DNA of 64,000 bases from contig CM049314.1 of assembly GCA_026874595.1 (NCBI GenBank), positions 2,007,318-2,071,317 on the forward strand, written 5' to 3'. How positions within the stretch are numbered: position 1 is the first letter of the stretch; every line of letters begins with the position of its first letter. The notes under the pieces were generated by a model. The model did no database searches and was not told where the DNA came from. It worked only from the letters and a program-made list of their open reading frames with translations. The translations under genes and the position numbers were made by a program. Source of the stretch: Sipunculus nudus (lineage: Eukaryota > Annelida > Sipuncula > Golfingiida > Sipunculidae). Shown piece after piece: positions 12,796-63,835 of the stretch.

Positions 12796-12799
<4 letters not shown>

Positions 12800-12845
<46 letters not shown>
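12800..12845. repeat. (TA)n microsatellite
   Basis: A run of alternating T and A, directly after the dispersed repeat. Confidence 0.95.
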
Positions 12846-12848
<3 letters not shown>

Positions 12849-28853: not shown

Positions 28854-29492
28854 TTATAAGGGTGTAATCTCAGAGTGTTCTGCAATGACGTCACTGTTTG
28901 ACGTACTTACGGTATTTCTTGACATAATGGATGCTGATCCAGATGGAGTTAAGCGGGGTGCCTCACTTACTAAAACTATCCCGGAGTTTGTAGCACCATT
29001 TGGCGCAGTAAACCTTTGTGAATTTCTAGACTCGTGACTCTTGAGATGTGATAATGAGTAACCACTTAGTTTATCAGCCTCATCAAAACTCCCATGGAAA
29101 GCCGAATTGGACACTCCTGTACTGACAATAGTTTCATATAAAGGTGTATCTGTACTGATGTAGGCCACATTTCCCTGTGATGAAGGCAAAGCTAAAACAT
29201 TCATTGCTGAATTGGAGTAAAAATGATTGGCAGACCGGTGGCTATTTGCGTTTTGATCCTTATAATGGTTGGCTTTATGTGATTCTTCATTCAAATTCGG
29301 ACCCTCTGGCAGATGGACTCTTGGGCCTTCATCATTCATATCAGGTATATAGGCTGGATTAACATATGCCCCAGACTCATTTCTCTCATTTTCAAAGCTT
29401 CTTGGCACTCCTCCATTTTGGTCTTCATGTTTGTGCACACGTCTTGACACAGAATCAACTCTATTCTTGTAAGTGCCAGAAGTTTCAGAGAT
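28854..29492 (-). CDS. flippase last exon P (hydrophilic C-terminal tail)
   Basis: 639 bp, 212 codons and a TAA stop. The acceptor TTTTCTACACAG is good and phase 0 matches exon N across an 11.7-kb intron. The sequence is polar and low in hydrophobic residues, rich in Ser, Asn and His, and looks disordered; no domain was recognised. Such tails of P4-ATPases often hold regulatory phosphorylation or cleavage sites. It is longer than usual for the family as I know it. That it belongs to the flippase is inferred from strand, phase and splice site; an unseen exon could lie between. Confidence 0.65.
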   Translation of the reverse strand: MSETSGTYKNRVDSVSRRVHKHEDQNGGVPRSFENERNESGAYVNPAYIPDMNDEGPRVHLPEGPNLNEESHKANHYKDQNANSHRSANHFYSNSAMNVLALPSSQGNVAYISTDTPLYETIVSTGVSNSAFHGSFDEADKLSGYSLSHLKSHESRNSQRFTAPNGATNSGIVLVSEAPRLTPSGSASIMSRNTVSTSNSDVIAEHSEITPL

Positions 29493-41400: not shown

Positions 41401-44400
41401 ACCACTTAAATAGAGTTATATCTTATTTTCATTTTAATCATTATTTTACATTTTATCAAGGATTTTAATGAGTTTTTATTTGAGGCACAATTTTTTCAGG
41501 TCATCCAATTATTCATTTGAAATAATTCAAACTTTAATAAATAAGGGTAACAAGTGTTTTTTTTTCCTAATGTTCCCTTTTAAGGGTCTAATGTCACTGA
41601 AGCCCAGCCATTAATAGACATATAATTTCTTATTTTCAAAATTATCCGCTTTTTTTAACTTTTACATATACCAAATGGCTTTGAGTATATATCATGCAGA
41701 GGAAAGGTTTGAAATACCTTCCTGTCTAGTACTGACACAACTGTGAATACAAATAAATGAAAAAATTAAGAACTGTTGAAAAATTTAAATAAACTTACCA
41801 TATAATGGCAGTGTAAAAGAAAACAGATCCAAAGAAGATGGCGAAGGTGAACGCAAATGCGAAGAATGCTGCCCCCGACCAGTAGTACCAATCCAGCATC
41901 AGCTAAAAACAGAACAAACTTAAGATGTTAAAATCCCAAAAGGTCATGAATATAAGCAATGTCCAAACACCCTACATTTTCTGTTAGTGTTTCAGGGCAT
42001 GTCCTGCAGGAGGCATTGCTTACTGTTATTGGATGAAGATAATATAATTAAGTAACATAAAGACTTACAGTGCCACTTATACAAAATTTAAGTGTTTGTT
42101 TGATGTTTAGGATGTCAGTCTAATTTTTTTATGCATAACACAAATATCTTGTGAAAGTTTATTTCAATTAATAAAATTCTAATGTAAAAAAAACATGGAG
42201 GTAATCAAAGTTTTTACCTTAACATTTGCAATAATGACTATAGCAGTGTAGATAAGGCAACCGTGTTCATAAAGGCCCCACATCTGAAACAAAGGATGAC
42301 ATTCTTTTATTGTAGAATGAAAGATCTGTACAGATGAATCCCAAAACAGGTTCATATATAAGAAGAATACATAATAAATGTAAGTTTACAATAACTGTTA
42401 GTGATATAATAAAAAAAATACTTATTTCTGATATAATATGAAAATTGAACATAGAGTTCACAGCAGCATTCTTGCTATAGTTGCAATGGTCATTGATCAG
42501 AATATATCTTGATCAGAATTAGTGTTTTTAGCACTTTTGAACATGGCCTAAATCACTAGTATTGAAGGGAGAATGCTTAATATTTAGGTGAGGACTCTCT
42601 AATAATTCTCATTAGAACAGGTTTGGAAATAAAAGAGAAAATTACAATTACATGGAACTTTTCAAAAGTATTTCCTATGTCTGTGCAAAACTGAAATTTT
42701 TAATAATTTTTCTCCTGTGCTGAGCATTTTTCTAATATTTAGCAAAGTTCCTCAAATGTTTGAATTTACTTTGTGTTTTACTCACCTTGCCGTGGGTGGT
42801 CATGGGATCCCCATAATGGAATGTCAAGTATGGAACAAAGAATACAACCAAGGAATGCCAAAGACCTAAATAAACAGAAGAGTTTAAAATAATGTATAAC
42901 AAATACATAGCATAATATCCTGCAACTTATAAAGACCACACCTACTGGGAACTGCATATTTTTTTTTATTTGAGATAGCATACCTGGACCCCCCCCCCCC
43001 TTATCTAAAGTCAGTCTAAAAGTTGTTTAAAATTCACATTAGACCACATAAAGGTTACATCATTTTAAACCTGGTACAGTGTTCTTTTTGATGGTATACT
43101 TTTAACTGAAATGGACATGTTATTGTAACTTTTTTGAAAATGTTTAAGTGGACTAATATTGACAATATATTAATATAGCAGTTTTATATATACATTTTAC
43201 ATATGAGTTTTATCTCATATATAAACTTTTATTTTATATCTAAATTTAATTTTATATATTCAAATTGGTGCTTATAAGCAGATCTGGTAGACTTCCATTG
43301 ATCTTTAATGAGCTCTTTCTGGACATTGTTTGTCAGGTGTTCTGTTCAAGAATATGCCAAACGGCCATAATGTGTCATTGACAGTTTTAAATATTTGCAT
43401 GTGTACATATGAAAGACCAACTTACCTAACATATTGTTCTTCATAAACTGACCCCATGACAAGACACTATTTCTGGCAATTCGTCTAACAGTCAGAATAA
43501 AACATGCAATATATTAGTAGTGTTTGGTCATGCACTGCAGTGATCACTGGATACAATTTCAACATTAAAGAGTCCTTTCATAATATAAGATATTAATCAA
43601 ATATTTCCTCTATACTGCTTACGCAGTGGTAACATTTGCTTTTTTTTTCTAATCCTTTCTCTTATATCAACTGCTTGCAAAGTTGGCCTTAAATATAGAT
43701 CTGTCAGGGTGCCGGCAGGGGACAAACAATGACAGCTTGGTATCATGGTTTTGCCGAGATTTTTTTGTATTCAAAGCTGAATCCTGCTCTTATTTGCTGG
43801 CAGACTCTTGGCCCTGTGCCAGCACCCTTTGCAGCTAAAAACTGCAAAGGTGGTCAATGCAAGCAGCTGGTGAGTGGACAATTTTAACGTGACCATTGCA
43901 TGAGGAATGTAATCTTGTCTCAGCTTATTTTGATAATTAAGAGTTGATTATTTTTAATAACACCAAAAATAAAGTGTTGCCAGGATTAACCAGGGAGTTA
44001 TTATTTTTTCCACAGTGTGGTATTTTGTGAATATCATTTTAAAGGATGTACAATTCTTCATAAAAAAAGTTTTTTTTTCTGTCTAAAACACTGTAGGTAC
44101 CAAAATAAAGGTACAATATCTGCAAATGGATTTTTATTTCATCACACCTACCTGTATAACTCTGGCTTTTTCATAAGAGTCATCCGTGGAATGTGCTGCT
44201 CAAACAAGCCATACAGTAGGATCGGCAGCGCTGTGAACGCCGTGTTGAAGAACGTCAGGAAAAATGTGTCATATATGGACTGAAAATAAAGTACAATTCA
44301 AATTTGTGTTTTATAAACATGACATAATATTCATGTGAATTAATCTAAATAAGTTTTATTTAAATAATTTTAAATACTTTCATAATTGAAATTCATATTT

Positions 44401-47400
44401 GGAAACCTGGCATAGTGACAGCAGGGCATATGCTAATAATCCTTTACATTTATTCAGTTTGCCACGAGCTAAAAGCCCAGGTGGTGCTGCCACCTACAGT
44501 TTCTCAAAAGCACTACTCAAGGCAAAATTTGATTAATAAAATAATGCATATACTGCCATCTGTCATCCTGGTTGTGTACTAAATGCATTCTGATGGAAAA
44601 TCAGGGGAGTTCTGAATATTGGTAACAGTAAGATTTGACACATTCACAAGATAAATTTAATATTCCTTTTTCTATAACATCAGGAAATATCTATTTCTTG
44701 ATCTATTTTATTAATATTACACCATCTTCATCAGATGAGTGTTACATGAAACATAAAAATGTATTTAAAGTCAGCAAAGGTTCATTCAGTAATTCCCTGT
44801 CCCACTGGATTAGATATTTTCGGACAAGTAGCTCAGGAAAGGTATGGAATATCACACAAAGCTCATGGCGTCACGCGAATGTGCAAGTGGCAATGGTGAC
44901 CCACTTTCCCCGCAGTGAATTGGACAATAAAATCAATTTACAATACCCCTCTAGGTGTCAATGGCCCAGAACCTACGTGATTTTAATCTTCCTCCAAATT
45001 AATGTTCCGCGAATATTGCGAGGGAACATATAAAACAACCCAACCCTTTAATTCTGATGCCTGTGTACTATTACTTTTTGGAACAGCCTATCTTTGAACA
45101 CAGCCTATCTTTGAACACAGCCTATTCAAGTTTTTTAACGATTGTCTACAACATCTTTATGGTAAAGGATCACATGCTTTAGGGGAATTCCCTCATTAAT
45201 ATTTATTGAATAGATTACCCATTGTATTTCTAATACAGCAGCAATGTTTACAAGAGTGGTCACTGACCGGAGTTCATTACGAATCTTAGTGATGTGAAAA
45301 TAACATTTGTGCGGATTATAAATAGCAGCATGCAGTAGTGAGTCACAAAAATAAGTTTGTTCGATTATGTAAGCAATGGACTGTGATCCCTTCATACTTG
45401 TTTTGAAGTAATTTGAGATTTTAACAGGTTCGCTTCTAATTACAGTGAGGAGAAGCGAGTGATACACAAAGTGACTCCGTGTGTACTCATGGTACATGGT
45501 TAATTAGCGGTTTGTGTTTGCAATATGACAAACAGGCTCCTCAAAGGCTTGTATAATAAAGTAAAAAGGACCAGCTTTCTTTGATAATAATAAACAAGAT
45601 TCCCTTCGTTATTTGTTCAGCAGAGCAAGATTAATTCCTTCTTTTTAAAGTAAATATTGTTGTTAACTTGTAAATATTGTTGTGAATATGATTTATACTG
45701 ATGTATATATCCCCCATCTATTTGTATAATAAATAAATGAATGTTTATGTAGACATGTATGCATTGGTTTTCTTTGTTCGCTTCATGCTGAGGGCTGAGA
45801 CTTAAGACCACCTGAGACTATGGACCACCTGTGACATCACTTTTAGTGTTGCACATCAGGTGGTCTCAACTCTCAGGTTTTACTGTATATCATTAAATAC
45901 ACTTACCTGTGCTGAGAATGCTGCGACGAACTGGAAGTACAGTTGTGCTGTGATAAAAGCTACATTCTGAAAAAGAAATGAAATACATGTAATAATGATG
46001 TGCTATAAAGACCAAAAAAAAAAATTCTAACATAAATATATGCTTATATGGGTTGACATGTTCCCACTCCGATATAACAATCAGGCAGTTGCTGGAGCCT
46101 ACATACATTTATAATGTATACATTTCACAATCTGATAATTTGGAACCACTTTGGGTCATCCCCCAAGTTTCAAGATCCATGAAATAATAAAAAAATTCTA
46201 GCAGAATGTGTAACAAGGGACCCATGGGTCACGGCGCTCAGCTGATCGTGATTGGACTATAAATGTTTCTCCACTATATCGAGTCGATAAAGCTTATGAA
46301 TATCATGTACATGTTAGGCTATTATAAAGGAATTTTATGTAATATGTGAGTAAATGATAAATGAAATTACCTGACTGATGGATTAATAGAGTCAAATAAA
46401 GTGGTTTATTTTTTATTTATTTAGGAGGGGTTGAAAATTGTGATATATTTGAGCAAATATGAATGCAATGACAGCAGTAATAAGCAGTAGTAGAATGATG
46501 ATAAGGCTATTTGTTGAAGGATCTAAAGTGTATGGTAGTCTGCAAGCGTTCAATTTGACAGATATGATGTTATGATTAACTATGCTGATGAAGTGATTTA
46601 TGAATATGTGACTGTATGACACAATATCTCTTTAGTCTTGACAAGGTACATTATTGTGATGCCCACTATGTCTACATATTACACAATATTGACATAATTT
46701 CTGGCATGTACATAGGTACCTATGGACGAATAGTTATACAAAATATTAAAGTATGAATATATCTGATTCATCTTGTTCTTGCTTACTGAGGCTGACTTTG
46801 GGATGGGGTTCGGAGAAGGGAAAAGTGAGACCAGCACAAAGGTGGATGTAGAAATATTCTATTGTAATGTTTTTCATTTATATAAGAATATGAAAAGCTA
46901 AGAGGAAAGGGGCCCTCCTACTTGGTTATAGTAAAGTTCTAAATATATGATTGCAAACTAATACTCTGACAAGACTGTCATGAAGAAAAACAGTAAAAGT
47001 TTTGAGATACTGTGTTGCATATGAAAATTTATAGTTGGACAGGCAAGTGGACAGAATGGACTAATACCTTTATTTCACTTTCAAGAGAATAATGCATTTA
47101 AATTTAAATATAATCCTATTATTTTAAGCAGATCCACTTTTTCCATTAAGAAGTTTTTATCTGAATCATTTTTTTTATTTACAGGTTTATAAATTTTTAA
47201 TTAAAAAACCTGAAAATAAAAGTTAAAATATTAGAATTGTTGCAAAAGTTGCAATCATTATATATACATAGTAAAAAACATTGGGTCATATTATGCATAC
47301 ACATATATTTTATTATTTTTAAATCATAAATGTTTAAACTGAATTTAAAAGAAAATAATGCCACAACATGGCATCTACAAGAATATTCCTTGAATCACTA

Positions 47401-50400
47401 TTAAATAGTTTTGCACATTGGAGTTTTCAGGACATGCTTAATTTTATTCACCAAAATAAAATAAAAGTAAATTTGATAAAATAAAACATCTTTTCAAATA
47501 AAGTATACACACTGTTGGTTGAATGAGGGACAAACAATATCATTGTGCTAATTGCTATCCCAGTTTTAATTAATTACTGGAATTAATAGTCAATTTCACA
47601 CCTGGTGAAGTTTTTACTCTTCTGAAGTAAGGAATTACTTATCTCATGAACATCCACACTTTCACAGCAATACACCACTTTGTGGACACAATTAAATGTA
47701 CACTTTAATCATTGTAACCCTCGTGGTACAATACAAAATCTAAAATGTAGCATGTCCAAGAATAAAATTAAAATACAGAAAAATTATAACATTCATCTAG
47801 TTTATGCACCAGCTGGGGGGGGGGATAAGTGCAGGCAAAGGGGAAGCCTGCTAGTAGTGGCCAAGCTGGGCCAAGGTAAGCTGCCTGGGGTGGGTTACAT
47901 AATGCAAGTGAAGGCTGTACTACCAGGTGGGCTAGATGTAAACAACACTTGACATGGTGTATGAAAACATGAATAAAAGCTATTCATTCCAATCAATTTC
48001 TTTTGAATGTTCAGATTTTAAAAGATTAAATCCTTGTGCATATATGCTGGGAAAATTAAATCAACAGTGCCAAAGTTGGACAAAATTTAAGGTATTGATT
48101 TTTTATTTATGCTAATAACTTGAAAAATTTGCAAAATTCAGATCTAATTTTGGGTAAACAATTGAATCTTGATTAAATAAAGTTATATTCCTGAAAAAAA
48201 GTCTCTAGGTTCAGCAATTCTCATGTTAGGTGAGTAAATATATTTCCTGATTTTTTAAAAAATTGCATTATGTTTTGGCCCATATCTTCAAAATAATACC
48301 CAATACTGACCTAATTTTTGGTATGTTCATAGAAAATGTATAAAAAAATGTGATTACTAAATACGATCAAAAACAGATCAGTGGTTTTGATATAAAGCAG
48401 CCTTGAAGTGTAACAATGGTTTTTTTTATGGAAAACAGAGTTTTTTTTCCTTAATATCTCGAAGGAACAAAGTCCTAATGACCCAATTTTCGGTATGGTA
48501 GGAGATTTTGGGGACATCTAAAATTATGTCAACAGCCTGGGGAGCATAGAGATGTGGACTGAATGACCTACAGTCATCAAAGTGGACTGCCTGACAATGT
48601 AAGGGAATACAACAAGAGCCTCAAAAAAAATTCAATAACTAGCCTAAATTTGCAGCTTTTATTTTCAAATTTCAGATTTTTACAGATTAAATCCTTATGT
48701 ATACATGGTGTGAAAATTAAACCCACAGTACTTACAGGAAAAAAACGTGCCATGGCCAAAGTTGGGCAAAATTTAAGGTACCAATTTTATATTTTTGCCA
48801 ATATTTAAAAAAAATTTAACAAATTTTGATCTAATTTTTGGTATACAATTAAATTTTTATTAATTAAAGTTGTATTACTGAAAAAAAAGTCCCTACCTTT
48901 AACACTTTTGGTCTTAAGTGACCAAATATCTTCTTGATTTTTTTACAAAGTCCATTATGTTTGGGCCAATAACTGTTTTAAATTATATAATACTGACTTA
49001 ATATCTGGCATGTACATAGGAACTATATAGAGGAATATTTATGGTAAATATGAAGAAAACCAGATGAGTGGTTTTGATATTAGGCAGTCCTGAAGTGTGA
49101 AAATAGATTTCTAACAAGGGACCCATGGGTCACGGCACTCAGCTGATCGTGATTGGACCATAAATGTTTCTCCACTGTGATACTATATCGAGTCGATAAA
49201 GCTTATGAATATCATGGACATGTTGGGCTATTATAAAGGAATGTAATGTAATATGTGAGTAAATGATAAATGAAATAACCTGACTGATGGATTAATAGAG
49301 TCATATATAGTGGTTTATTTTTTATTTATTAAAGAGGTGTAGAAAATTGTGATATATTTGAGCAAATATGAATGCAATGACAGCAGTAATAAGCAGTAGT
49401 AGAATGATGATAAGGCTATTTGTTGAAGGATCTAAAGTGTATGGTAGTCTGCAAGCGTTCAATTTGACAGATATGATGTTATGATTAACTATGCTGATGA
49501 AGTGATTTATGAATTTGTGACTGTATGACACAATATCTCTTTAGTCTTGACAAGGTACATTATTGTGATGCCCACTATGTCTACATATTACACAATATTG
49601 ACATAATTTCTGGCATGTACATAGGTACCTATGGATGAGTAGTTATACAAAATATTAAAGTATGAATATATCTGATTCATCTTGTTCTTGCTTACTGAGG
49701 CTGACTTTGGGATGGGGTTCGGGGAAGGGCAAAGTGAGGGCAGCACGAAGGTGGATGTAGAAATATTCTATTTTAATGTTTTTCATTTATATAAGAATAT
49801 GAAAAGCTAAGAGGAAAGGGGCCCTCCTACTTGGATATAGTAAAGTTCTAAATATATGATTGCAAACTAATACTCTGACATGACTGTCATGAAGAAAAAC
49901 AGTTAAAGTTTTGAGATACTGCAATGTATGAAAATTTACAGATGGAAAATTTACAGATGGACAGGCAAGTGGACAGAATGGACTAATACCTTTATTTCAC
50001 TTTCAAGGGAATAATGCATTTAAGTTTATATATAAGCCTATTTTTTTTTAAGCATATCCACTTTTTCCATTAAGAAGTTTTTATCTGAATCATTTTTTTT
50101 ATTTACAGGTTTTATAAATTTTAAATGAAAAAACCTGAAAATATAAGTTAAAATATTAGAATTGTTGCAAAAGTTGCAATCATTATATATACAGAGTAAA
50201 AAACTGAAACTATAAGTTAAAATATTAGAATTGTTGCAAAAGTTGCAATCATCATATATCCAGAGTGTAGCTCATATTGGGTCATATTATGCATACAGAT
50301 ATATTTTATTATTTTTAAATCATAAATGTTTAAACTGAATTTAAAAGAAAATAATGCCACAACATGGCATCTACAAGAATATTCCTTGAATCACTATTAA

Positions 50401-53400
50401 AAAGTTTTGCACATTGGAGTTTTCAGGACATGCTTAATTTTATTCACCAAAATTAAATAAAAGATTCAGTAAATTTGATAAAATAAAACATCTTTTCAAA
50501 TAAAGTATACACACTGTTGGTTGAATGAGAAACAAAAAATATCATTGTGCTAATTACTATCCAAGTTTTAATTAATTACTGAAATTAATAGTCAATTTCA
50601 CACCTGGTGAAGTTTTTACTCCTCTGAAGTAAGGAATTACTTATCTCATGAACATCCACACTTTCATAGCAATACACCACTTTGTGGACACAATTAAATG
50701 TACACTTTAATCATTGTAACCCTGGTGGTACAATACAAAATCTAAAATGTAGCATAGCCTAGAATAAGAATGAATCACATACAGAAAATAATAACATTCA
50801 TCTAGTTTATGCACCATCTGGGGGGGGGGGGGAGGGAGTGCAGAGCAGAGGGGAAGCCTGCTGGTTGTGGCCAAGCTGACCCAAGGCGAGCTGCCTGGGG
50901 TGGGTTACATAATGCAAGTGAAGGCTGTACTACTAGGTGGGCTAGATGTAAACAACACTTGACATGGTGTATGAAAACATGAATAAAAGCTATTCTTTCC
51001 AATCAATTTCTTTGAAATTTCAGATTTTAAAAGATTAAATCCTTATGTATATATGCTGTGAAAATTAAATCAACAGTGCCAAAGTTGGACAAAATTTAAG
51101 GTATTGATTTTTTATTTATGCTAATAACTTGAAAAATTTGCAAAATTCAGATCTAATTTTGGGTAAACAATTGAATCTTGATTAAATTAAGTTATATTCC
51201 TGAAAAAAAGTCTCTAGGTTCAGCAATTCTCATGTGAGTAAATATATTTCCTGATTTTTTAACAAATTGCATTATGTTTTGGCCCAAAACTTCAAAATAA
51301 TACCCAATACTAACCTAATTTTTGGTATGTTCATAGAAAATGTATAAAAGAATGTGAATCCTAAATACGATCAAAAACAGATCAGTGGTTTTGATATTAG
51401 GCAGCCCTGAAGTGTAACAATGGCTTTTTTTTATGGAAAACGGAGTTTTTTTTCCTTAATATCTCGAAGGAACAAAGTCCTAATGACCCAATTTTCGGTA
51501 TGGTAGGAGATTTTGGGGACATCTAAAATTATGTCAACAGCCTGGGGAGCATAGAGATGTGCACTGAATGACCTACAGTCATCAAAGTGGACTGCTTGAC
51601 AATGTAAGGGAATACAACAAGAGCCTCCAAAAAAATTCAATAACTAGCCTAATTTTGCAGCTTTTATTTTCAAATTTCAGATTTTAACAGATTAAATCCT
51701 TATGTATACATGGTGTGAAAATTAAATCCACAGTACTTACAGGAAAAAAACGTGCCATGGCCAAAGTTGGGCAAAATTTAAGGTACCAATTTTATATTTT
51801 TGCCAATATCTAAAAAAATTTAACAAATTTTGATCTAATTTTTGGTATACAATTAAATTTTGATTAATATAAGTTGTATTACTGGAAAAAAGTCCCTACC
51901 TTTAACATTTTTGGTCTTAAGTGACCAAATATCTTCCTGATTTTTTTACAAAGTCCATTATGTTTGGGCCCATAACTTTTTTAAATTATATAATACTGAC
52001 TTAATATCTGGCATGTACATAGGAACTATATAGAGGAATATTTATGGTAAATATGAAGAAAACCAGATGAGTGGTTTTGATTTTAGGCAGTCCTGAAGTG
52101 TGAAAATAGATTTTTAATAAAAAATTGAGGTTTTTCCTTAATATCTCAGGGGAACGAAGTCCTATTGACCCAATTTTTGGCATGGTAGGAGATTATGGGG
52201 ACATCTAACTGTATGCCGAAATTCAGATTCGTAGGTCCAACGGTGTCGAAACGTGCCAGTCTTACGGACGGACATCCAGACGGACAGACGGACGGACGGA
52301 CGGACAGACAGACGGACGGACGACGGACAATGGACCATGACTATAGCTCAGATGACTTATAGTCAGCTGAGCTAATAAAAAATTGAGGTTTTTCCTTAAT
52401 ATCTCAAAGGAACGAAGTCCTATTGACCCAATTTTTGGCATGGTAGGAGATTATGGGGACATTAACTGTATGCTGAAATTCAGATTCGTAGGTCCAACGG
52501 TGTCGAAACATGCCAGTCTTACGGACGGACATCCAGACGGACAGACGGACGGACGGACAGACGGACAGACAGACGGACGGACGACGGACAATGGACCATG
52601 ACTATAGCTCAGATGACTTATAGTCAGCTGAGCTAAAAATGAAATTTAGTGGAACTAAGACATAATGTATCCTCCATAACCCTAAAGTGAGAATCATGTC
52701 TTGTGTAGAAGTTTTTCTTGTGATACTTACTTTGTAAAAGAAATATGTAACCAGGTTGGCTATCCTGACATAGAAGTAATGCCCGTGCAGCAGCAAAGCT
52801 CTCTTCAAGAAACAGAAGCGACCAAACGCGTAGTCACTGGACCGTGTGGCTTGCCTGCCCTCTTTACCCATAATGCCTGCAAGGTGATAATAAGGCATAA
52901 ATATACATGGAATTCAAATCCCAGTTATTGGACTATGAGGCTTACAAACCAATGATATCAGCCATCTGTGCGACTAAAACTCCCAAACTCAATATATTAT
53001 TGATGTTGCTGGTTAATTAAAAATACAACAACTACTAACAATAATACCTATTCATTAACATCACCCAAAATATATAGATGATTTCTAAGAGATTTCATAA
53101 GATTCAAAAAGACATAAAACATAACATATGTTAACTATTAAAATATGTTTAAAAGCTGTTACAGCTTTTTAAGGTTATTGGGAAGTCCTGTGATAATTCA
53201 GGTGCAATAAAGTCAGCTGCCCTCCATCAAGCGAACTTGGAACAGTAAGGGGTACACAATCCTAAAATGTCAAGTAGGGTTCAATAGGCCATTATAGGCT
53301 GTGTCTATTGTTACTCTCATTATATTATAAACAGGCGCTGATGTGAGTATTAACATTTATAGATTAATATTACCTATGCCGACGTGAGCCTCCTGGATCA

Positions 53401-56400
53401 TACTGACATCATTATACTATATGCAGTCACTGTATTTAATAAGCATTAACATTTATTGTTTAATCTTACCGATGCCGATGTGAGCCTCCTGGATCATACT
53501 GACATCATTATACTATATGCAGTCACTGTATTTAATAAGCATTAACATTTATTGTTTAATCTTACCGATGCCGACGTGAGCCTCCTGGATCATACTGACA
53601 TCATTATACTATATGCAGTCACTGTATTTAATAAGCATTAACATTTATTGTTTAATCTTACCGATGCCGACGTGAGCCTCCTGGATCATACTGACATCAT
53701 TATACTATATGCAGTCACTGTATTTAATAAGCATTAACATTTATTGTTTAATCTTACCGATGCCGACGTGAGCCTCCTGGATCATACTGACATCATTATA
53801 CTATATGCAGTCACTGTATTTAATAAGCATTAACATGTATTGTTTAATCTTACTGATGCCGACGTGAGCCTCCTGGATCATACTGACATCATTATACTAT
53901 ATGCAGTCACTGTATTTAATAAGCATTAACATTTATTGATTAATCTTACCGATGCCGATGTGAGCCTCCTGGATCATACTGACATCATAATACTATATGC
54001 AGTCACTGTATTTAATAAGCATTAACATTTATTGTTTAATCTTACCGATGCCGATGTGAGCCTCCTGGATCATACTGACATCATTATACTATATGCAGTC
54101 ACTGTATTTAATAAGCATTAACATTTATTGTTTAATCTTACCGATGCCGACGTGAGCCTCCTGGATCATACTGACATCATTATACTATATGCAGTCACTG
54201 TATTTAATAAGCATTAACATTTATTGTTTAATCTTACCGATGCCGACGTGAGCCTCCTGGATCATACTGACATCATTATACTATATGCAGTCACTGTATT
54301 TAATAAGCATTAACATTTATTGTTTAATCTCACCGATGCCGACGTGAGCCTCCTGGATCATACTGACATCATTGGCACCATCCCCGATGGCTGCAGTTGT
54401 AGGTTTGTCAGCGTGCTCCTTAACCAGCTTGACAATCTAAAAATAATAAACATGAGCACTGCCAATTGTAAGTCTTGTGACCTTTGACCTAATTAGGTGC
54501 AAATTTTTCTGAGAATTAAATTCACGTGAAAAACTCTACTGGGTAATATTAATAGTGAGTTTCATGAAAATCTATCATATTTTGGGAATGTCACCATGGA
54601 GCCACCAAAGTCTGATGACCTATGACCTATTACCTTCATTCATAAAGAAGCCTGGTGACCTAATTATATATGCATGAATTTTGCTGAGAATCAAACTCAT
54701 GAAAGCTATTCTGTTGGTAAATATATTATGAGATCTCTGAAAATCCTTCAAATCCATTTTAAGCTATATAGTGGCAACACTAAAAATTAACACATGCTTC
54801 CCATAACCAATTACCATGATATGACCAGTACTCTTTAATGGAAGTATAAAAAGGATAATGAAAATATTACAGAGATCCATGGATATGACATATGGAAAAT
54901 AGATGCTATGAACCGAATGAAGATTAACCTAGAAATTACAAATGGAAGAGGGTACAGGCCCATTTCAGATGGTAGATAAAAATATATCATTTTGGTAAGA
55001 GCATAGATACATTGTTTATCCACTTATGAGAGAACAGATATCAGGAGAAATCAGTACTTACCTGTGCTTTCTGTATTGGAGAGTGCAGGAGAGGAAATCA
55101 GCAACTTACCTGAGCTTTCTGTATTGGTGAGAGCCGACAGCATAACACCGTGACACACTGCGTGCACACCTGTAGGAAGTCTTTTCTCAGATCTTTGGTG
55201 ACCAGCGCCAGACTCTGTCCATCTACGATTAGTGCATGTCTGTCTTGAGCCTCCCGCCTTGCATCATGGAGTCTAAAAATGTGCATTAACAAAAACTCAA
55301 ATACAAACTACTTTTTCTTATTTGAGTATATCAGTGGTATATACTGACAGATGAAAGACCTCAGATATACCTACAATATCACTCAAACCAGAATGTTTCC
55401 ATTATTATTTTTGTCCTATTATGTGGTATAATATTTTAAGATATAAAACATGATATAAAAAAAATAAAAATAAAAATATCTAAATGCGTCTTTCAGTGAT
55501 TTTCTAGGTATGGGCCAGTGTAAGATATGGACCTATTTTATCAGGACTGTATCTTATTTTACCCCTATTTTTCAAAATTCAATTACCACAGCAAAAAAAG
55601 TATGAACCTAAACTTATGATACACAATCCATTTAGACTAGCACATAATTCATCTAGTAACTCTGAGATAATACAGAATTAATCTATTATCACACTTTTAA
55701 AACCTGAAAGATGAGTTTGAAAATCATACACTGGTTACATCAGGCAAATACTGCAAGACTTACACCCTCTGAAGGTGTGACAGTTTTTCCCTGGCCTCAT
55801 CAGCAGTTCTACACCGTGTGAGTCTGACCTCAACCATCAACTGGTTAAAATGACCGGCGGAGTAGCTGATGTTGACTGCAGTCTCCTCTTTATCTCCTGT
55901 CAGAACCCATATCTGGAAAAAAACAAGGTACGGATCTACATCTCCTCTTTATCTCCTGCCAGAACCCATATCTGAAACAACAAGGTATGGATCTACATCT
56001 CCTCTTTATCTCCTGTCAGAACCCATATCTCAAACAACAAGGTATGGATCTACATCTCCTCTTTATCTCCTGCCAGAACCCATATCTGAAACAACAAGGT
56101 ATGGATCTACATCTCCTCTTTATCTCCTGCCAGAACCCATATCTGAAACAACAAGGTATGGATCTACATCTCCTCTTTATCTCCTGCCAGAACCCATATC
56201 TGAAACAACAAGGTATGGATCTACATCTCCTCTTTATCTCCTGTCAGAACCCATATCTGAAACAACAAGGTATGGATCTACATCTCCTCTTTATCTCCTG
56301 TCAGAACCCATATCTGAAACAACAAGGTATGGATCTACATCTCCTCTTTATCTCCTGCCAGAACCCATATCTGAAACAACAAGGTATGGATCCACATCTC

Positions 56401-59400
56401 CTCTTTATCTCCTGCCAGAACCCATATCTGAAACAACAAGGTATGGATCTACATCTCCTCTTTATCTCCTGTCAGAACCCATATCTCAAACAACAAGGTA
56501 TGGATCTACATCTCCTCTGTATCTCCTGTCAGAACCCATATCTGAAACAACAAGGTATGGATCTACATCTCCTCTTTATCTCCTGTCAGAACCCATATCT
56601 GAAACAACAAGGTACGGATCTACATCTCCTCTTTATCACCTGTCAGAACCCATATCTGAAACAACAAGGTACGGATCTACATCTCCTCTTTATCTCCTGT
56701 CAGAACCCATATCTGAAACAACAAGGTATGGATCTACATCTCCTCTTTATCTCCTGTCAGACCCCATATCTGAAACAACATGGTATGGATCTACATCATT
56801 TGCCATTTAAGGCAGATATGTTGCAGTATGTGCGAAGAAACATCCACAATGAACTTATATTTATTAATTTTTATAAAAATGATAAAACCACAATGTAAAA
56901 GGCAAAATGACAAAAGTAATATGACATGTACACACAGTATACCTTTCTGCAAAAGACTGAAACAATTTAAAAATAAATACATCAAGAAATAACAATGCTA
57001 TATTGCACAAAAAACTAAACAGCATGAAAGTGGTGGTTTACGAAGAATTCTTTCCAGACCCTAACTGGCTACCATGTTTTACTTTGAAAATAATCTTTCT
57101 ATTTATGAATCTAAATTTCCCTGAAAACACAATGAATACAGGATATTTTGCATCAATATCTCATAAATCTATTACAGATTATATAATTAAATTTAAAAAA
57201 GATAACTGATAACTGATGTCCTATATGTTTTTCATCTCTGTATTTGACCTGTCTTATAGCAATGAATTATTCTTACACATGATCCACAGTCTAAATGCAA
57301 ATTTCTCAAATTGTGCTCTGCAATGGTTCTATCATTACTCAGTGGTATTATTACATTTTTCAAAGTTTTTTTTTCAGAGAGACCCAGTTACCTTTATTCC
57401 TGCCTCTCTGAGGGCCTCTAATGTTTCTGGAACGCCATCCTGTAATCTGTCCTCTACAGCTGTTGCTCCTAGTAACGTCAGCTGGTCTTCAATCTGACTG
57501 TAAAGTTGCTGCAGCTAAAATGAAAATAATACACAGATTTAGAATAAAGGAATAATCAAACATATAATAGTTCATTGTAAATCAGTCGCTTTAAAAAGTA
57601 ACAGTAAGGGCACTTTGAAATTAATAGTAAGTTTTGTAAAGTTAGCTGCAAATTTTTACATGTCCCTATGAACTATTAAATGTATTAATTAATCTGATGT
57701 TATTTCAGATAACCACAACACAGTCTGGCAAATAATGTTATTGGTCGTTTGCCTTGTTAAAGAAAACATCTTAACCATACTTGATAACCAAGTAGAAAAT
57801 GACTGAATGTATATCTAAGTTTTCTGGGCTTTGTTTCTTACTGAGAGAGCTGCAAATGTATAGCAGGTCATAGAGGTAAAACAAATATTACTTTTACTAC
57901 AAATTAAAACCAATTTCCTTGACAGTGAGGTGCCGAACAAATTTCTCTTTTAAATTCATCCACCAGTGGGGAGCATCCTTAGGTTACTGGGTCTGCGGAA
58001 TTCATCAAGCAACTGGTTGTGGGGAAACAGGGTTATGTTCACAGCTCAGATGACTTAGTAAGCTGTCCAATGTGTTTTTCAATTAATGTATTCATTCTCA
58101 AAATATTTTTTTTAAACCATGGGACCTTGATATGTTGTTAACTATCTAATCAAAGATGATTGAATCAAGCAATGATAACATTAAGTCATTATTGAACTTC
58201 CAGAATTAGAGGCTTTATATGCACTATAGTCTTACCATCATGTCATTAGTGTCTGAGAGGTCTAACAAGATTTATAATATAATCATTATCTTATTGAGGA
58301 TTGGGGGACTGAGAGGGTGGGGGATGGGGGGGGGGGGTTCAACTGAATATCTATAAATAGGTCATGCTGGGTCTCTGGAAGCCAGGGGGGATGGGAGACT
58401 GTCCCTGCTGTAAGTTGTTCTTCAAAGAACTGACATACATAATGGGGTCTGAATTATAATGACAATTAAGGAAGATTCTCTGTAAGTCATGTTTCAAGTA
58501 GGAGCACTATCTGATGTAGGACTAATTTCTTAGTCTGATGAATATGCATTTGCATATTAAATAGTATAACAAACACAATAACTCAAACAGTTTATCATTC
58601 AATGGAACACAACATTAAAAAGCCATAATTTATTTTAATTAATATCTGAGTAGGTGAGAGCACCACACTGGAGGACAACACAATTTTAACTTCAAGTAAC
58701 AAGGGGCATTCAAAACATGATCTAAAGTCGAAGGGCATGTCCTGACATAATGTCAAAGGTCAACCTGACCTTAAGTCACAGGGAATGACCTGACCTATGG
58801 TTAAAAGCACTGTCAGCACAATCAAGATCACATCTGGGATATGTTATACCTAACTGGTAATCTGTCATGTTTCCAAAGTATGAACCTGTGATACAAGTAG
58901 GGTGATATATTCATTAGTCATTTATATATAAACAATATTGTATAAATACAGCCACATTAGAAATGACATAGCTGAACCCTAGTACCAAATTATTATGTTA
59001 TCAAGTTTCGATTAATGAATATGAGCTATAAAAAAGTTACTTTTACTCAGATGTATGGTCTAGGAAGAATTTTATAGAATCATATACCCATATCTTGCAA
59101 AAATGTTATCTTCCCCCAAAGATAGAATTTTTTTTTCTGTCCGTAGGAAAGGCCTGTATAAAGCAGTTTATTGAATCATACCCTATTGCACTAAGAATAC
59201 AAAATATTTCTATTTTCTTTGTAAACCAACAAAAACCACCCCTTATCTGCTGTAAGTGAAAGCAGAAACTCAAATATTATTTCTATATAATGAAATTGAT
59301 AAAACAACATTTCTTACCTTCTCTTCTCTATTCTCCAGGGCTTTCTTGGCTTCCTTGAGATTGTTGTCAATTCTGTGGAATTCTTCTGGTTCAAGCTTTC

Positions 59401-59440
59401 GTTCAGCTATCACCAGTGTCCTCAAACCCAACTACAGGAA

Positions 59441-59481
<41 letters not shown>

Positions 59482-62400
59482 AATACTGAGATGTTTAGCA
59501 TTTGTATATTAAGTTTGTAATATCTTGTTAGTTTCTGGTACATTATGGGGTACATGTCTTTTGCCAGCTTGTACTTTACATCACTTAAAAGTAGAAAGAT
59601 GAAAAACCATGATTTACTATTTTTCTATGTTCTCTGCATATTAAATAAATCAATGAAAAATAATCAAAAATATTTTCCATATCATACTAACCACTGTTAA
59701 CAAAAAAATAACTGGTTGTCATATTTACATCTGCAGTTTGAATGACCTATTTAAAAATTCAAATATTGATTTTTTTAAATTAAAATCCTTTACACATCTC
59801 ATCCAGAAAAAGTGATTTTCTTTAAGGAGCCCTTCTGATATATTTGTTGTTCTGTACATCACAGTGTAGTGTTTAGGAATAATGTGGATATCATGTACTA
59901 ACCAATGCATAATTTTTAGGAATAATATGGATGATGTACTAACCAATGTGTAATGTTTAGGAATAATGTGGATGATGTACTATCCAACGTGTAGTGTTTA
60001 GGAATAATGTGGATGATGTACTAACCAACACGTAATGTTTAGGAATAATGTGGATGATGTACTAACCAATGCGTAATTTTAGGAATAATGTGGATGATGT
60101 ACTAACCAATGCGTAATGTTTAGGAATAATGTGGATGATGTACTTACCAATGCGTAATGTTTAGGAATAATGTGGATGATGTACTAACCAATGCGTAATG
60201 TTTAGGAATAATGTGGATGTACTTACCAACGCGTAAAGTTTAGGAATAATGTGGATGATGTACTTACCAACGCGTAATGTTTAGGAATAATGTGGATGAT
60301 GTACTAACCAATGCGTAATGTTTAGGAATAATGTGGATGATGTACTAACCAATGCGTAATGTTTAGGAATAATGTGGATGTACTTACCAACGCGTAATGT
60401 TTAGGAATAATGTGGATGATGTACTTACCTACGCGTAATGTTTAGGAATAATGTGGATGATGTACTAACCAATGTGTAATGTTAAGGAATAATGTTGATG
60501 ATGTACTTACCAACGCGTAATGTTTAGGAATAATGTGGATGATGTACTAACCAATGCGTAATGTTTAGGAATAATGTTGATGATGTACTTACCAACGCGT
60601 AATGTTTAGGAATAATGTGGATGATGTACTTACCAAAGCGTAATGTTTAGGAATAATGTGGATGATGTACTAACCAACGCGTAATGTTTAGGAATAATGT
60701 GGATGATGTACTAACCAACGCGTAATGTTTAGGAATAATGTGGATGATGTACTAACCAATGCGTAATGTTTAGGAATAATGTGGATGATGTACTAACCAA
60801 TGCGTAATGTTTAGGAATAATGTGGATGTACTTACCAACGCGTAATGTTTAGGAATAATGTGGATGATGTACTTACCAACGCGTAATGTTTAGGAATAAT
60901 GTGGATGATGTACTAACCAATGCGTAATGTTTAGGAATAATGTGGATGTACTTACCAACGCGTAATGTTTAGGAATAATGTGGATGATGTACTAACCAAT
61001 GCGTAATGTTTAGGAATAATGTGGATGATGTACTAACCAATGCGTAATGTTTAGGAATAATGTGGATGATGTACTAACCAACACGTAATGTTTAGGAATA
61101 ATGTGGATGATGTACTAACCAATGTGTAATGTTTAGGAATAATGTGGATGATGTACTAACCAACGCGTAATGTTTAGGAATAATGTGGATGATGTACTTA
61201 CCAACGCGTAATGTTTAGGAATAATGTGGATGATGTACTAACCAATGCGTAATGTTTAGGAATAATGTGGATGATGTACTAACCAACGCATAATGTTTAG
61301 GAATAATGTGGATGATGTACTAACCAACACGTAATGTTTAGGAATAATGTGGATGATGTACTAACCAATGCGTAATGTTTAGGAATAATGTGGATGATGT
61401 ACTAACCAATGCGTAATGTTTAGGAATAATGTGGATGATGTACTAACCAACACGTAATGTTTAGGAATAATGTGGATGATGTACTAACCAATGCGTAATG
61501 TTTAGGAATAATGTGGATGATGTACTAACCAACGCGTAATGTTTAGGAATAATGTGGATGATGTACTAACCAACACGTAATGTTTAGGAATAATGTTGAT
61601 GATGTACTTACCAACGCGTAATGTTTAGGAATAATGTGGATGATGTACTAACCAATGCGTAATGTTTAGGAATAATGTGGATGATGTACTAACCAATGCG
61701 TAATGTTTAGGAATAATGTGGATGATGTACTTACCAACGCGTAATGTTTAGGAATAATGTGGATGATGTACTAACCAACGCGTAATGTTTAGGAATAATG
61801 TGGATGATGTACTAACCAATGCGTAATGTTTAGGAATAATGTGGATGATGTACTAACCAATGCGTAATGTTTAGGAATAATGTGGATGATGTACTAACCA
61901 ATGCGTAATGTTTAGGAATAATGTTGATGATATACTTACCAACGCGTAATGTTTAGGAATAATGTGGATGATGTACTTACCAAAGCGTAATGTTTAGGAA
62001 TAATGTGGATGATGTACTAACCAACGCGTAATGTTTAGGAATAATGTGGATGATGTACTAACCAATGCGTAATGTTTAGGAATAATGTGGATGATGTACT
62101 AACCAATGCGTAATGTTTAGGAATAATGTGGATGATGTACTAACCAATGCGTAATGTTTAGGAATAATGTGGATGTACTTACCAACGTGTAATGTTTAGG
62201 AATAATGTGGATGATGTACTTACCAACGCGTAATGTTTAGGAATAATGTGGATGATGTACTAAGCAATGCGTAATGTTTAGGAATAATGTGGATGATGTA
62301 CTAACCAATGCGTAATGTTTAGGAATAATGTGGATGATGTACTTACCAATGCGTAATGTTTAGGAATAATGTGGATGATGTACTAACCAATGCGTAATGT

Positions 62401-63835
62401 TTAGGAATAATGTGGATGATGTACTTACCTACGCGTAATGTTTAGGAATAATGTGGATGATGTACTAACCAATGCGTAATGTTTAGGAATAATGTGGATG
62501 TACTTACCAACGCGTAATGTTTAGGAATAATGTGGATGATGTACTAAGCAATGTGTAGTGTTTAGGAATAATGTGGATGATGTACTAACCAATGCGTAAT
62601 GTTTAGGAATAATGTGGATGATGTACTAACCAATGCGTAATGTTTAGGAATAATGTTGATGATGTATTTACCAACGCGTAATGTTTAGGAATAATGTGGA
62701 TGATGTACTTACCAAAGCGTAATGTTTAGGAATAATGTGGATGATGTACTAACCAATGCGTAATGTTTAGGAATAATGTGGATGATGTACTAACCAATGC
62801 GTAATGTTTAGGAATAATGTGGATGTACTTACCAACGCGTAATGTTTAGGAATAATGTGGATGATGTACTTACCAACGCGTAATGTTTAGGAATAATGTG
62901 GATGATGTACTAACCAATGCGTAATGTTTAGGAATAATGTGGATGATGTACTTACCAACGCGTAATGTTTAGGAATAATGTGGATGATGTACTAAGCAAT
63001 GCGTAATGTTTAGGAATAATGTGGATGATGTACTAACCAATGCGTAATGTTTAGGAATAATGTGGATGATGTACTAACCAATGCGTAATGTTTAGGAATA
63101 ATGTGGATGATGTACTAACCAATGCGTAATGTTTAGGAATAATGTGGATGATGTACTTACCAATGCGTAATGTTTAGGAATAATGTGGATGATGTACTTA
63201 CCAACGCGTAATGTTTAGGAATAATGTGGATGATGTACTTACCAACGCGTAATGTTTAGGAATAATGTGGATGATGTACTAACCAACGCGTAATGTTTAG
63301 GAATAATGTGGATGATGTACTAACCAATGCGTAATGTTTAGGAATAATGTGGATGATGTACTAACCAATGCGTAATGTTTAGGAATAATGTGGATGATGT
63401 ACTAACCAATGCGTAATGTTTAGGAATAATGTGGATGTACTTACCAATGCGTAATGTTTAGGAATAATGTGGATGATGTACTTACCAACGCGTAATGTTT
63501 AGGAATAATGTGGATGATGTACTAACCAACGCGTAATGTTTAGGAATAATGTGGATGATGTACTAACCAATGCGTAATGTTTAGGAATAATGTGGATGAT
63601 GTACTAACCAATGCGTAATGTTTAGGAATAATGTGGATGATGTACTAACCAATGCGTAATGTTTAGGAATAATGTGGATGATGTACTAACCAACGCGTAA
63701 TGTTTAGGAATAATGTGGATGATGTACTAACCAACGCGTAACTGTTAACATGTTGTTCTGCAGCTTCCTTATCTCCATCTATGACACGATTAAATATTGC
63801 TGACTCAGCGCCTTTTACCAGAATGTACCCAGTAC
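28854..63835 (-). CDS. P4-type ATPase (phospholipid flippase), ATP11-like, C-terminal 735 codons in 15 exons
   Basis: Exons in transcript order: 63835-63732, 59431-59318, 57514-57392, 55912-55764, 55272-55110, 54436-54334, 52876-52731, 45966-45907, 44279-44152, 43484-43426, 42865-42786, 42283-42218, 41902-41799, 41380-41209, 29492-28854. Each has an AG acceptor and GT donor and all phases join, giving 2210 nt without a stop until 28854. P4-ATPases move phosphatidylserine and related lipids to the cytosolic leaflet using ATP, usually with a CDC50/TMEM30 partner. Seen here: KGAES of the N domain, [21 protein letters not shown] and [11 protein letters not shown] of the P domain, then GKEGRQA, six hydrophobic segments (M5-M10) and a 212-codon hydrophilic last exon. 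The DKTGT phosphorylation site and A domain lie beyond the window. ATP11 (class VI) is the best guess from the membrane region; other P4 classes remain possible. Confidence 0.92.
29493..38320 (-). other. last flippase intron, left part
   Basis: AT-rich intron sequence. At about 33540-33910 three diverged copies of a block of roughly 150 bp (AATAATTTCTATTC...TGACC...CAAGGTCAC) form an old tandem repeat. A single GC-richer stretch at 36140-36240 carries a 49-codon Arg-rich ORF on the plus strand (36152-36301). Nothing else is supported; short ORFs look like chance. Confidence 0.5.
38325..39275. repeat. minisatellite, 42-bp unit, about 22 copies, with 420-bp higher-order period
   Basis: The unit contains TATCACTTTTGGACACTGG and CCCTCTCTGATATGGGTG. 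Variant units recur in the same order ten units apart: the diverged one with GGATACTTGGCCCTCAGTAA lies near 38442 and again near 38862. A block of ten was therefore duplicated. As 42 is divisible by three, several frames on both strands stay open for about 900 bp. The minus-strand frame gives a 14-residue repeat ([14 protein letters not shown]), but no exon borders or outside homology support coding. Confidence 0.95.
39276..41208 (-). other. last flippase intron, right part
   Basis: AT-rich intron between the 42-bp array and exon N. No coding exon, RNA gene or clear transposon was found. Confidence 0.5.
41209..41380 (-). CDS. flippase exon N (M10)
   Basis: 172 bp, acceptor ATTTGTAG, donor GTACGC, ends in phase 0. 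It encodes [20 protein letters not shown], membrane segment 10, then [20 protein letters not shown], the basic start of the cytosolic C-terminal tail. Confidence 0.92.
41799..41902 (-). CDS. flippase exon M (M9)
   Basis: 104 bp, acceptor TTTTTAG, donor GTAAGT. It encodes [10 protein letters not shown] and a strongly hydrophobic Phe-rich helix ([19 protein letters not shown]), membrane segment 9. Confidence 0.9.
42218..42283 (-). CDS. flippase exon L (M8)
   Basis: 66 bp, 22 codons in phase 0, acceptor GTTTCAG, donor GTAAAA. It encodes [20 protein letters not shown] then VK, membrane segment 8. Confidence 0.9.
42786..42865 (-). CDS. flippase exon K (M7)
   Basis: 80 bp, acceptor TATTTAG, donor GTGAGT. 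It encodes [15 protein letters not shown] and then [11 protein letters not shown], membrane segment 7 and an extracytosolic loop. Confidence 0.9.
43426..43484 (-). CDS. flippase exon J (M6-M7 loop)
   Basis: 59 bp, acceptor CTGTTAG, donor GTAAGT. It encodes [16 protein letters not shown] in a frame fixed by the split codons at both borders. It is short but well supported by phase. Confidence 0.85.
44152..44279 (-). CDS. flippase exon I (M6)
   Basis: 128 bp, acceptor ATTTTCAG, donor GTAGGT, phase 2 at its end. It encodes [19 protein letters not shown] and then EQHIPR, the sixth membrane segment and following loop. The FTxLPIL...EQ pattern is typical of P4-ATPases. Confidence 0.93.
45907..45966 (-). 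CDS. flippase exon H (M5 continuation)
   Basis: 60 bp, exactly 20 codons in phase 0, acceptor TTTTTCAG, donor GTAAGT. It encodes [13 protein letters not shown] followed by VAAFSAQ. With exon G it forms the KNVxFIT membrane segment. It is separated from exon G by a 6.8-kb intron filled with a duplicated repeat. Confidence 0.9.
46212..49111 (+). mobile_element. GGAC-tailed repeat element, copy 2 (right end lost at the duplication junction)
   Basis: Begins AACAAGGGACCCATGGGTCA as copies 1 and 3 do. Its whole length is repeated at 49113 onward with a spacing of 2901 bp and few differences. It stops in the AGGCAGTCCTGAAGTGTGAA segment, where the next copy begins, so it lacks the GGAC tail. A 69-codon minus-strand ORF (46413-46622) is present in both copies but has no recognisable content. 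Confidence 0.75.
49113..52371 (+). mobile_element. GGAC-tailed repeat element, copy 3 (complete right end)
   Basis: The second copy of the 2.9-kb unit, continuing through the (GGAC)n-like tract (about 52262-52325) to GACTTATAGTCAGCTGAGCT at about 52370. It is very similar to copy 2, with scattered substitutions and a 60-bp internal duplication near 50190-50260 (TAAGTTAAAATATTAGAATT occurs twice). It sits in the intron between flippase exons G and H, opposite to the gene. Confidence 0.75.
52372..52637 (+). repeat. tandem second copy of the GGAC-tailed right end
   Basis: Repeats about 52117-52371 from AATAAAAAATTGAGGTTTTT through the GGAC tract to CAGCTGAGCTAAAAATGA. It ends about 90 bp before flippase exon G's donor. 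Confidence 0.85.
52731..52876 (-). CDS. flippase exon G (GKEGRQA, start of M5)
   Basis: 146 bp, acceptor CTTGCAG, donor GTAAGT, phase 0 at its end. It encodes [18 protein letters not shown] and then [19 protein letters not shown], the start of membrane segment 5 in P4-ATPases. Confidence 0.94.
53345..54330. repeat. minisatellite, 96-bp unit, 10 copies, carrying the exon F 3' edge and donor
   Basis: Units lie 96 bp apart (for example 53377, 53473). On the minus strand each holds AATGATGTCAGTATGATCCA and on to GGCATCG, the last 40 bp of exon F (coding [13 protein letters not shown]), followed by GTAAGATTAAACAATAAATG and about 40 bp of intron. The unit joins exon F directly at 54334. Array copies have donor GTAAGA; exon F itself has GTGAGA. 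Confidence 0.95.
54334..54436 (-). CDS. flippase exon F (GDGANDV)
   Basis: 103 bp, acceptor TTTTTAG, donor GTGAGA. It encodes [20 protein letters not shown], which holds the two Asp residues that bind Mg2+ in the P domain. The last 40 bp and the donor are repeated ten times downstream in the 96-bp array. Confidence 0.95.
55057..55083 (-). repeat. partial duplicate of exon E 3' edge and donor
   Basis: Minus-strand CCAATACAGAAAGCACAG followed by GTAAGT. This matches the true exon E end (CCAATACAGAAAGCTCAG, then GTAAGT) at 55105-55131 with two differences. The copy would still code for IQKAQ. It lies 48 bp downstream, in the intron. Confidence 0.9.
55110..55272 (-). CDS. flippase exon E ([10 protein letters not shown])
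   Basis: 163 bp. It encodes [13 protein letters not shown], typical of the P4-ATPase P domain, and ends [14 protein letters not shown] before donor GTAAGT. A partial second copy of its 3' end and donor lies 48 bp downstream at 55057-55083. Confidence 0.93.
55764..55912 (-). CDS. flippase exon D (VLTGDK)
   Basis: 149 bp. It begins [17 protein letters not shown], the TGDK loop of the P domain, and ends in phase 2 before GTAAGT. The acceptor is TTTTTTTCCAG, a longer pyrimidine tract than in the 15 partial copies of this exon start found upstream in the intron (GTTGTTTCAG). Confidence 0.93.
55913..56800. repeat. minisatellite, 57-bp unit, about 15 copies, carrying the exon D acceptor and 5' edge
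   Basis: On the minus strand each unit reads CCTTGTTGTTTCAG, an acceptor, then ATATGGGTTCTGACAGGAGA and TAAAGAGGAGAT, the first 31 bp of exon D ([10 protein letters not shown]), then GTAGATCCATA. The array abuts exon D. The period is divisible by three, so long false ORFs appear on the plus strand. A few units carry single changes such as GGATCC for GGATCT. Confidence 0.95.
56801..57391 (-). other. intron C-D remainder
   Basis: AT-rich intron between the 57-bp array and exon C. No feature is seen apart from a T run ahead of the exon C donor. Confidence 0.5.
57392..57514 (-). CDS. flippase exon C ([10 protein letters not shown])
   Basis: 123 bp, 41 codons, phase 0 at both ends; acceptor TTTTAG, donor GTAACT. 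It encodes [19 protein letters not shown] and ends AGIK. This is the conserved start of the P-domain hinge in P-type ATPases; the motif continues in the next exon. Confidence 0.93.
57515..59317 (-). other. intron B-C
   Basis: Intron sequence without a recognised gene or transposon. G-rich stretches lie at 58311-58337 and 58386-58400. Confidence 0.5.
59318..59431 (-). CDS. flippase exon B (GLRTL)
   Basis: 114 bp, 38 codons, phase 0 at both ends; acceptor CCTGTAG, donor GTAAGA. It encodes [18 protein letters not shown] and a Lys/Glu-rich stretch. The A-x-x-GLRTL junction with the previous exon is the expected P4-ATPase sequence, which confirms the position of exon A's donor. Confidence 0.92.
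59447..59478. repeat. (TA)n microsatellite
   Basis: Alternating TA run directly upstream (on the minus strand) of exon B's acceptor. Confidence 0.95.
59860..63731. repeat. minisatellite, 41-bp unit, about 95 copies, carrying the exon A 3' edge and donor
   Basis: About 3.9 kb of a 41-bp unit containing AATGTTTAGGAATAATGTGG, with a 38-bp variant lacking one ATG. On the minus strand each copy holds TTACGCGTTG or TTACGCATTG, the end of exon A, followed by GTTAGT or GTAAGT. The array joins exon A at 63732-63740 without a gap. Units are more diverged at the left end (59860-60000), away from the exon. GTAAGT mostly goes with CGCGTTG and GTTAGT with CGCATTG, so at least two unit classes are interspersed. 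Confidence 0.97.
63732..63835 (-). CDS. flippase exon A (N domain, KGAES)
   Basis: 104 bp, preceded by TGTTTTACAG and starting in phase 1. It encodes [18 protein letters not shown] and ends at GCGTTG before donor GTTAGT. In P4-ATPases this KGA segment forms part of the nucleotide-binding pocket. The donor is weak, while many copies of it in the adjoining 41-bp array read GTAAGT. Confidence 0.9.

Follow-up and report, generated by a model that had tools for sequence, protein, structure and literature searches.

The window, a stretch of 64,000 nucleotides, holds in its right portion the 3' part of a gene for an ATP11-type flippase (P4-ATPase), in which three tandem arrays carry an exon border in every unit and a fourth border has been duplicated once. 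The observation is real, and it is a dense case of a known oddity, the 'mirage' minisatellites; three arrays and a fourth remnant in one gene do not by themselves imply a new mechanism. The arrays most likely arose as a harmless side effect of DNA duplication.

The Flippase Gene and Its Exon Model

The gene lies on the minus strand (28854..63835). Fifteen exons (A-I, I', J-N) were placed by hand from GT/AG signals and the reading frame, and when joined they give 735 codons in a single open frame without internal stop. A search with the first 551 of the 735 residues matched ATP11C (phospholipid-transporting ATPase IG, PDB 6lkn) over query residues 4-513 with E=8e-124, DRS2 and other P4-ATPases being the next matches of this part. 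Exons A-M, which encode 523 residues, are supported by homology, the match to ATP11C stopping within exon M. The A/B, C/D, E/F, and F/G junctions are gap-free in the ATP11C alignment, and the exon edges adjoining the arrays are thus well fixed. Introns separating the homology-supported exons measure 315 to 6764 nt, and the intron leading to exon N is 11,716 nt long. The exons that matter most here are as follows, with a slash at the splice border:

63732..63835, minus strand: exon A, donor TTG/GTTAGT, with the 3' end repeated in the 41-bp array
55764..55912, minus strand: exon D, acceptor TTTTTTTCCAG/ATATGG, with the 5' end repeated in the 57-bp array
55110..55272, minus strand: exon E, donor CAG/GTAAGT
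54334..54436, minus strand: exon F, donor TCG/GTGAGA, with the 3' end repeated in the 96-bp array
28854-29492, minus strand: exon N, placed by frame and splice signal alone, without homology support

The G+C content of the window is 35.4%; that of amphioxus genomes is higher, which tentatively favours another marine invertebrate over a lancelet as the host. An Rfam family search and a tRNA search gave no match. Two repeat words had no match in genome_contigs and one had none in viral_contigs, where a 147-residue piece likewise found no relative.

Arrays Spanning Exon Borders

TRF reports five arrays in the window with a unit of at least 20 bp and at least 10 copies, and three of these have an exon border in every unit:

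59866..63746, minus strand: 41-bp array at the exon A donor, 95.2 copies by TRF
55882..56797, minus strand: 57-bp array at the exon D acceptor, 16.0 copies by TRF
53349..54373, minus strand: 96-bp array at the exon F donor, 10.7 copies by TRF

The 41-bp unit consists of the end of exon A, the donor, and about 31 intron nucleotides, the exon part being 10 nt by exact match and 15 by the TRF limits. Most of the 94 spacings are 41 nt (85), the others being 38 nt (eight) and 40 nt (one). The terminal copy is incomplete, and GT is intact in 90 of the 94 extra copies. The 95 copies fall into 25 distinct types with only weak periodicity; at the best lag, six copies, a fraction of 0.31 are identical as compared to a mean of 0.20.

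The 57-bp unit joins 26 nt of intron end, including the AG acceptor, to the first 31 nt of exon D. This array comprises 16 whole units, with a shared flank of at most 2 bp as judged by eye, and its spacings are 57 nt except for the one adjoining the exon, which is 59 nt (14 and one, respectively). AG is intact in all 15 extra copies, two of which have GAG instead of CAG. The 96-bp unit contains the last 40 nt of exon F, the donor, and 56 intron nucleotides; there are 11 donors separated by ten spacings of exactly 96 nt, the terminal copy is incomplete, and GT is intact in 10/10 extra copies.

The copies sit on the intron side of the exon in question. On the exon side the unit limits are found 10-40 nt within the exon, and on the intron side about 24-56 nt within the intron. 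The exon is the source of the D and F arrays, since the copied part encodes conserved P4-ATPase stretches that align to ATP11C, while the direction of copying is less certain for the A array because exon and unit overlap by just 10 nt.

A homogenised interior with a diverged boundary is seen at both ends of the D array and at the intron end of the F and A arrays. In the D array the real copy has a mean distance of 5.4 and the copy at the intron end one of 3.2, as compared to 1.3-2.9 for interior copies. The intron-end copy of the F array has a mean distance of 4.6 against 1.2-3.3 in the interior, and the real F copy (2.1) is no outlier. In the A array, copies 92 and 94 lie at distances of 3.0 and 4.7, respectively, from their nearest copy, against 0-2 elsewhere; the real A copy, at 2.0, is only a slight outlier. 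The units themselves are unalike: when the five array units were compared in 10 same-strand comparisons, an equally high score was reached by 119 to 194 out of 200 shuffles. A common origin of the arrays was considered and rejected, as no same-strand similarity was found among the units.

The fourth affected border belongs to exon E:

55042..55134, minus strand: donor end of exon E duplicated once, over 48 nt, into the next intron, limits taken from the alignment

The true border is at 55110 and the copy at 55062, CAG/GTAAGT is present in both, and 41 of 49 alignment columns are identical. This duplication is absent from the TRF list even at a score of 30. A first self-BLAST scan recovered the three arrays and missed the E duplication, and was therefore excluded from the counts. 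When all 29 borders were scanned by local alignment, no further edge copy scoring above 25 was found beyond A, D, E, and F.

The initial annotation had described three arrays whose units each hold an exon edge and a splice signal (the donors of A and F and the acceptor of D), which agrees with the present analysis, as does its statement that the units share no sequence (on the same strand, by the shuffle comparison). The one such duplication reported for exon E was also recovered, as a diverged copy of 48 nt, and with A, D, E, and F it is correct that four of the first six exons (A-F) are affected. The arrays do not, as was claimed, start exactly at an exon; they start 10-40 nt inside it.

Repeats Without a Known Border

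One large array of the gene, located in the intron that separates exon M from exon N, provides a counter-example, as it contains no exon border:

38329..39274, no strand assigned: 42-bp array, 22.5 copies by TRF

This array is free of stops in at least four frames, counting both strands, and its unit is a multiple of three. No exon border is present in the 69-bp and 257-bp two-copy loci, nor in any of seven loci with a period of 13-18. A 49-bp array at 3423-4404 falls outside the gene model, and a more diverged block related to it is found 235 bp beyond it, at 4639-4807.

Some dispersed repeats were also noted. Between exons G and H, intronic ORF blocks at about 46400-46860 recur at 49320-49770, about 2.9 kb apart (e.g., 46416-46631 and 49325-49540), which points to duplicated interspersed sequence. 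The regions 14820-16050, 48150-49070, and 51030-52600 have 20-mers in common and represent an interspersed repeat family; a 20-mer adjoining (ACGG)n occurs at each of 16030, 52318, and 52579. Overlapping this family is the tandem duplication of 257 bp (52115-52636). An ORF at 970-1410 on the minus strand has a PAN_1 match below threshold (17.4 bits, the cut-off being 21.4), the only match when two of the six reading frames of 1-14400 were searched against Pfam.

Border Contact Compared to Chance

In the chance model the arrays were collapsed to founder units, which were placed at random on the 28,116-bp gene with its 29 borders, and a border was considered held when at least 5 nt of the unit lay on each side of it. 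A random unit of 41, 42, 57, or 96 bp then holds a border with a probability of 0.03 to 0.09, and the probability that at least three of the four large arrays do so is 4.5e-4 (19 of 40,000 in a repeat run). The corresponding values for at least three contacts are 0.005 for the six TRF loci with a period of at least 20, and 0.009 for the 13 loci with a period of at least 13. If the gene is cut at exon M, three of three large arrays give P=6e-4, and at least three of five loci give P=0.014. If the E duplication is counted as well, which makes seven loci, at least four contacts have P=3.8e-4, a value which is biased because this duplication was spotted at a border and is not listed by TRF.

For a direct test, the 40-mer spanning each of the 29 borders was aligned to the 400 nt on each side of it, with a threshold score of 51. 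Four of the 29 borders reached this score, as did 58 of 3826 positions sampled away from borders (binomial P=9e-4), or 47 of 3826 when touching units were excluded (P=4e-4); these P values are rough, since the threshold was chosen after the score of 51 obtained for E, and since the control positions are clustered. In a first control of 600 intron positions outside the arrays the 99th percentile was 75, which was ascribed to the 69-bp and 257-bp duplications.

The gene is unusual in its border contacts. The earlier claim that chance poorly predicts three contacts is supported within this gene, with P from 4.5e-4 to 0.014 depending on the loci counted; as the values come from one gene that was selected for looking odd, they are post hoc. 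A genome-wide rule is unproven, since the gene was chosen for this very feature.

Splice Sites in the Copies

Constraint on the copied sites was assessed for the 84 full-length 41-mers among the 94 extra A copies, the remaining 10 being of other length or at the end. Within the donor core, columns +1, +2, +4, and +5 have 3, 1, 0, and 1 variants, respectively, while 25 of the 37 non-core columns have none, the busiest being -4 and +3. No excess conservation of the core was found in these copies, which are not independent: three of four core columns vary as compared to 12 of 37 others (Fisher P=0.13, the core being the more variable). The mean number of variants per column is 1.25 in the core and 2.24 elsewhere, the latter being due to the two busy columns (the median is 0). 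This test covers the A array alone; few variants are present in the D and F arrays. Retained GT and AG in the copies are as expected of homogenised repeats.

Donor strength was scored with a small matrix for which 11 of the gene's other donors served as the training set; these themselves scored 6.5 to 12.6 in-sample, as compared to 4.6 for the real A donor and 3.5 for the real F donor. The two low-scoring real donors, at 63732 (A) and 54334 (F), are those with arrays, although these are two cases only. Relative to the real donor, 31 of the 94 A copies score higher, 59 equal, and four lower, and in the F array nine of ten copies score higher. It is therefore not obvious that splicing should take place exclusively at the exon-side copy. 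The real D acceptor, with a score of 9.2, is above all 15 of its copies. If used, every one of the 113 copied sites tested (87 A, 10 F, 15 D, and 1 E) would lead to a premature stop, the 87 A donors being those of the 90 GT copies that match the motif exactly.

Origin of the Arrays

The arrays quite probably derive from ordinary short tandem duplications that chanced to have an exon border within the founder unit and were later expanded. A short tandem duplication would include the border, and the spliceosome would presumably use the exon-side copy, so that the extra copies would be intronic and nearly neutral, and border-crossing duplications would then survive like purely intronic ones. Duplications inside exons would be purged. 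Further copies would expand into the intron by unequal exchange or slippage, and the clustering in one gene might be luck mixed with a genome prone to tandem duplication. The available part of PMC3389668 describes models for minisatellite birth that depend on short flanking direct repeats (Haber-Louis) or on slipped strands with an incomplete terminal unit (Taylor-Breden). The incomplete last unit of the A and F arrays is as expected from such a slipped-strand model, and the diverged intron-end copies of A, D, and F, together with the diverged real D copy, support this origin. Unit limits 10-40 nt inside the exon argue against a mechanism acting at the junction itself. What speaks against a neutral origin is that three contacts exceed the number expected from random founders (P 4.5e-4 to 0.014).

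This excess is what would be seen if tandem duplication were favoured at exon borders, for instance by transcription-linked breaks, R-loops, or short repeats in splice signals, in which case a genome-wide enrichment would follow. Three of the four large arrays and one further duplication touch borders, the P value being 4.5e-4 for large arrays and 0.005-0.014 when small loci are included; 4/29 borders compare with 58/3826 other positions, and such arrays are found in several amphioxus genes. A bias at birth nevertheless seems unlikely. The data come from one gene chosen after the fact, the unit limits are found 10-56 nt away from the junction, and the 42-bp array, the two two-copy loci, and the seven short-period loci all lack a border. 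Moreover, the E duplication was spotted at a border and falls below the TRF threshold, so that similar mid-intron duplications may be missed. Nor is the sense strand consistently G-rich as an R-loop origin would predict, the GC skew being -0.33 (A), +0.42 (D), and +0.18 (F). With limits off the junction and inconsistent skew, the suggestion that R-loops or breaks give rise to repeats at splice borders was thus not supported. That exon borders act as hotspots of array birth in this genome is quite doubtful. If they do, the gene would carry a standing stock of donors and acceptors that lets splice sites shift and introns be born, and mirages would be general in some animal genomes instead of peculiar to amphioxus.

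The initial annotation also proposed that the spare splice sites are kept for a function. They might act as decoys for U1/U2, slow down splicing, or tune the flippase level through nonsense-mediated decay, and such a role would be in line with the core dinucleotide being intact in 90/94 A, 15/15 D, and 10/10 F extra copies, and with the low scores of the real A and F donors (4.6 and 3.5 against 6.5-12.6). The premature stop following from all 113 tested decoys would likewise fit a 'poison' role; intron-derived units rich in AT can be expected to contain stops, however, and the independent units number just four. As the core columns of A are no better kept than the rest (3/4 vary against 12/37), and amphioxus mirages are reported to be harmless to splicing, a function for the copies is highly improbable and the proposal finds no support. 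Collapsed or inflated repeats in the assembly are an equally meagre prospect: the BflGb6 mirage in the amphioxus draft is described as aberrantly assembled, while the 25 distinct types among the 95 A copies, with weak periodicity only, and the joining of the arrays to exons of one open frame speak against an artefact, though the copy number could still be wrong. Chance inclusion of a border in the founder unit, followed by expansion, remains the preferred origin.

Comparison with Known Systems

Introns derived from tandem duplication were reportedly described by Rogers in 1989, Zhuo et al. in 2007, and Gao and Lynch in 2009. In human paralogs, tandem repeats are found at exon-intron boundaries according to sections of PMC2812944. 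Common to these systems and the flippase gene is that duplicated splice signals are raw material for new introns or exons; here, in contrast, no copy shows signs of having come into use as the edge of an exon or intron. An abalone TSSK1-like gene has an intron minisatellite of 27 bp, which is not described as border-spanning in the available text (PMC6905558), and the accessible part of PMC3862624 contains nothing on border repeats. The human CBS gene has a 31-bp VNTR (c.1444_1467+7, 16-21 copies), whose unit by this numbering has 24 exon and 7 intron nucleotides, and in the same gene 844ins68 duplicates the intron 7/exon 8 junction, one copy being strongly preferred by the splicing machinery (PMC2630376, in part). 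As in the arrays described here, the donor is repeated in each copy of the CBS VNTR; the human cases differ in being single arrays whose copy number is polymorphic and has been typed.

The term 'mirages' was reportedly coined by Canestro et al. in 2002; neither the term nor the published cases appear in the initial annotation. How the spliceosome chooses among near-identical neighbouring sites can be studied in border-spanning minisatellites as in a natural experiment. Exon A is a puzzle in this respect, with 94 extra donor regions, 90 of them with GT, and about a third scoring above the real donor. As far as the consulted parts of PMC3087553 and PMC3902484 go, the amphioxus globin, Adh, and PGBD5 genes have minisatellites across exon-intron borders, and the mirages have units of 10-160 bp at 5' and 3' borders and leave regular splicing undisturbed. 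In lancelet PGBD5, repeats of 60 and 108 bp extend over the 5' and 3' splice sites, and troponin C is cited as well (PMC3902484, in part). The cluster boundaries of BflGb6 are similarly outside homogenisation, and mirages have been proposed as one source of new introns (PMC3087553, in part). Searches of open literature on the term, one of them restricted to texts that mention amphioxus, gave no mirage named outside the lancelets, which is weak evidence of absence. If the host is not a lancelet, the phenomenon extends past the group where it was named.

By their sequence-level features, known here from the DNA of one haplotype, the A, D, and F arrays would be counted among the mirages. They resemble those of amphioxus Adh3, BflGb6, BflGb9, PGBD5, and troponin C in that the unit lies across an exon-intron border and many copies have AG/GT, and they differ in that three arrays and one duplication are gathered in a single gene, one of the arrays having 95 copies.
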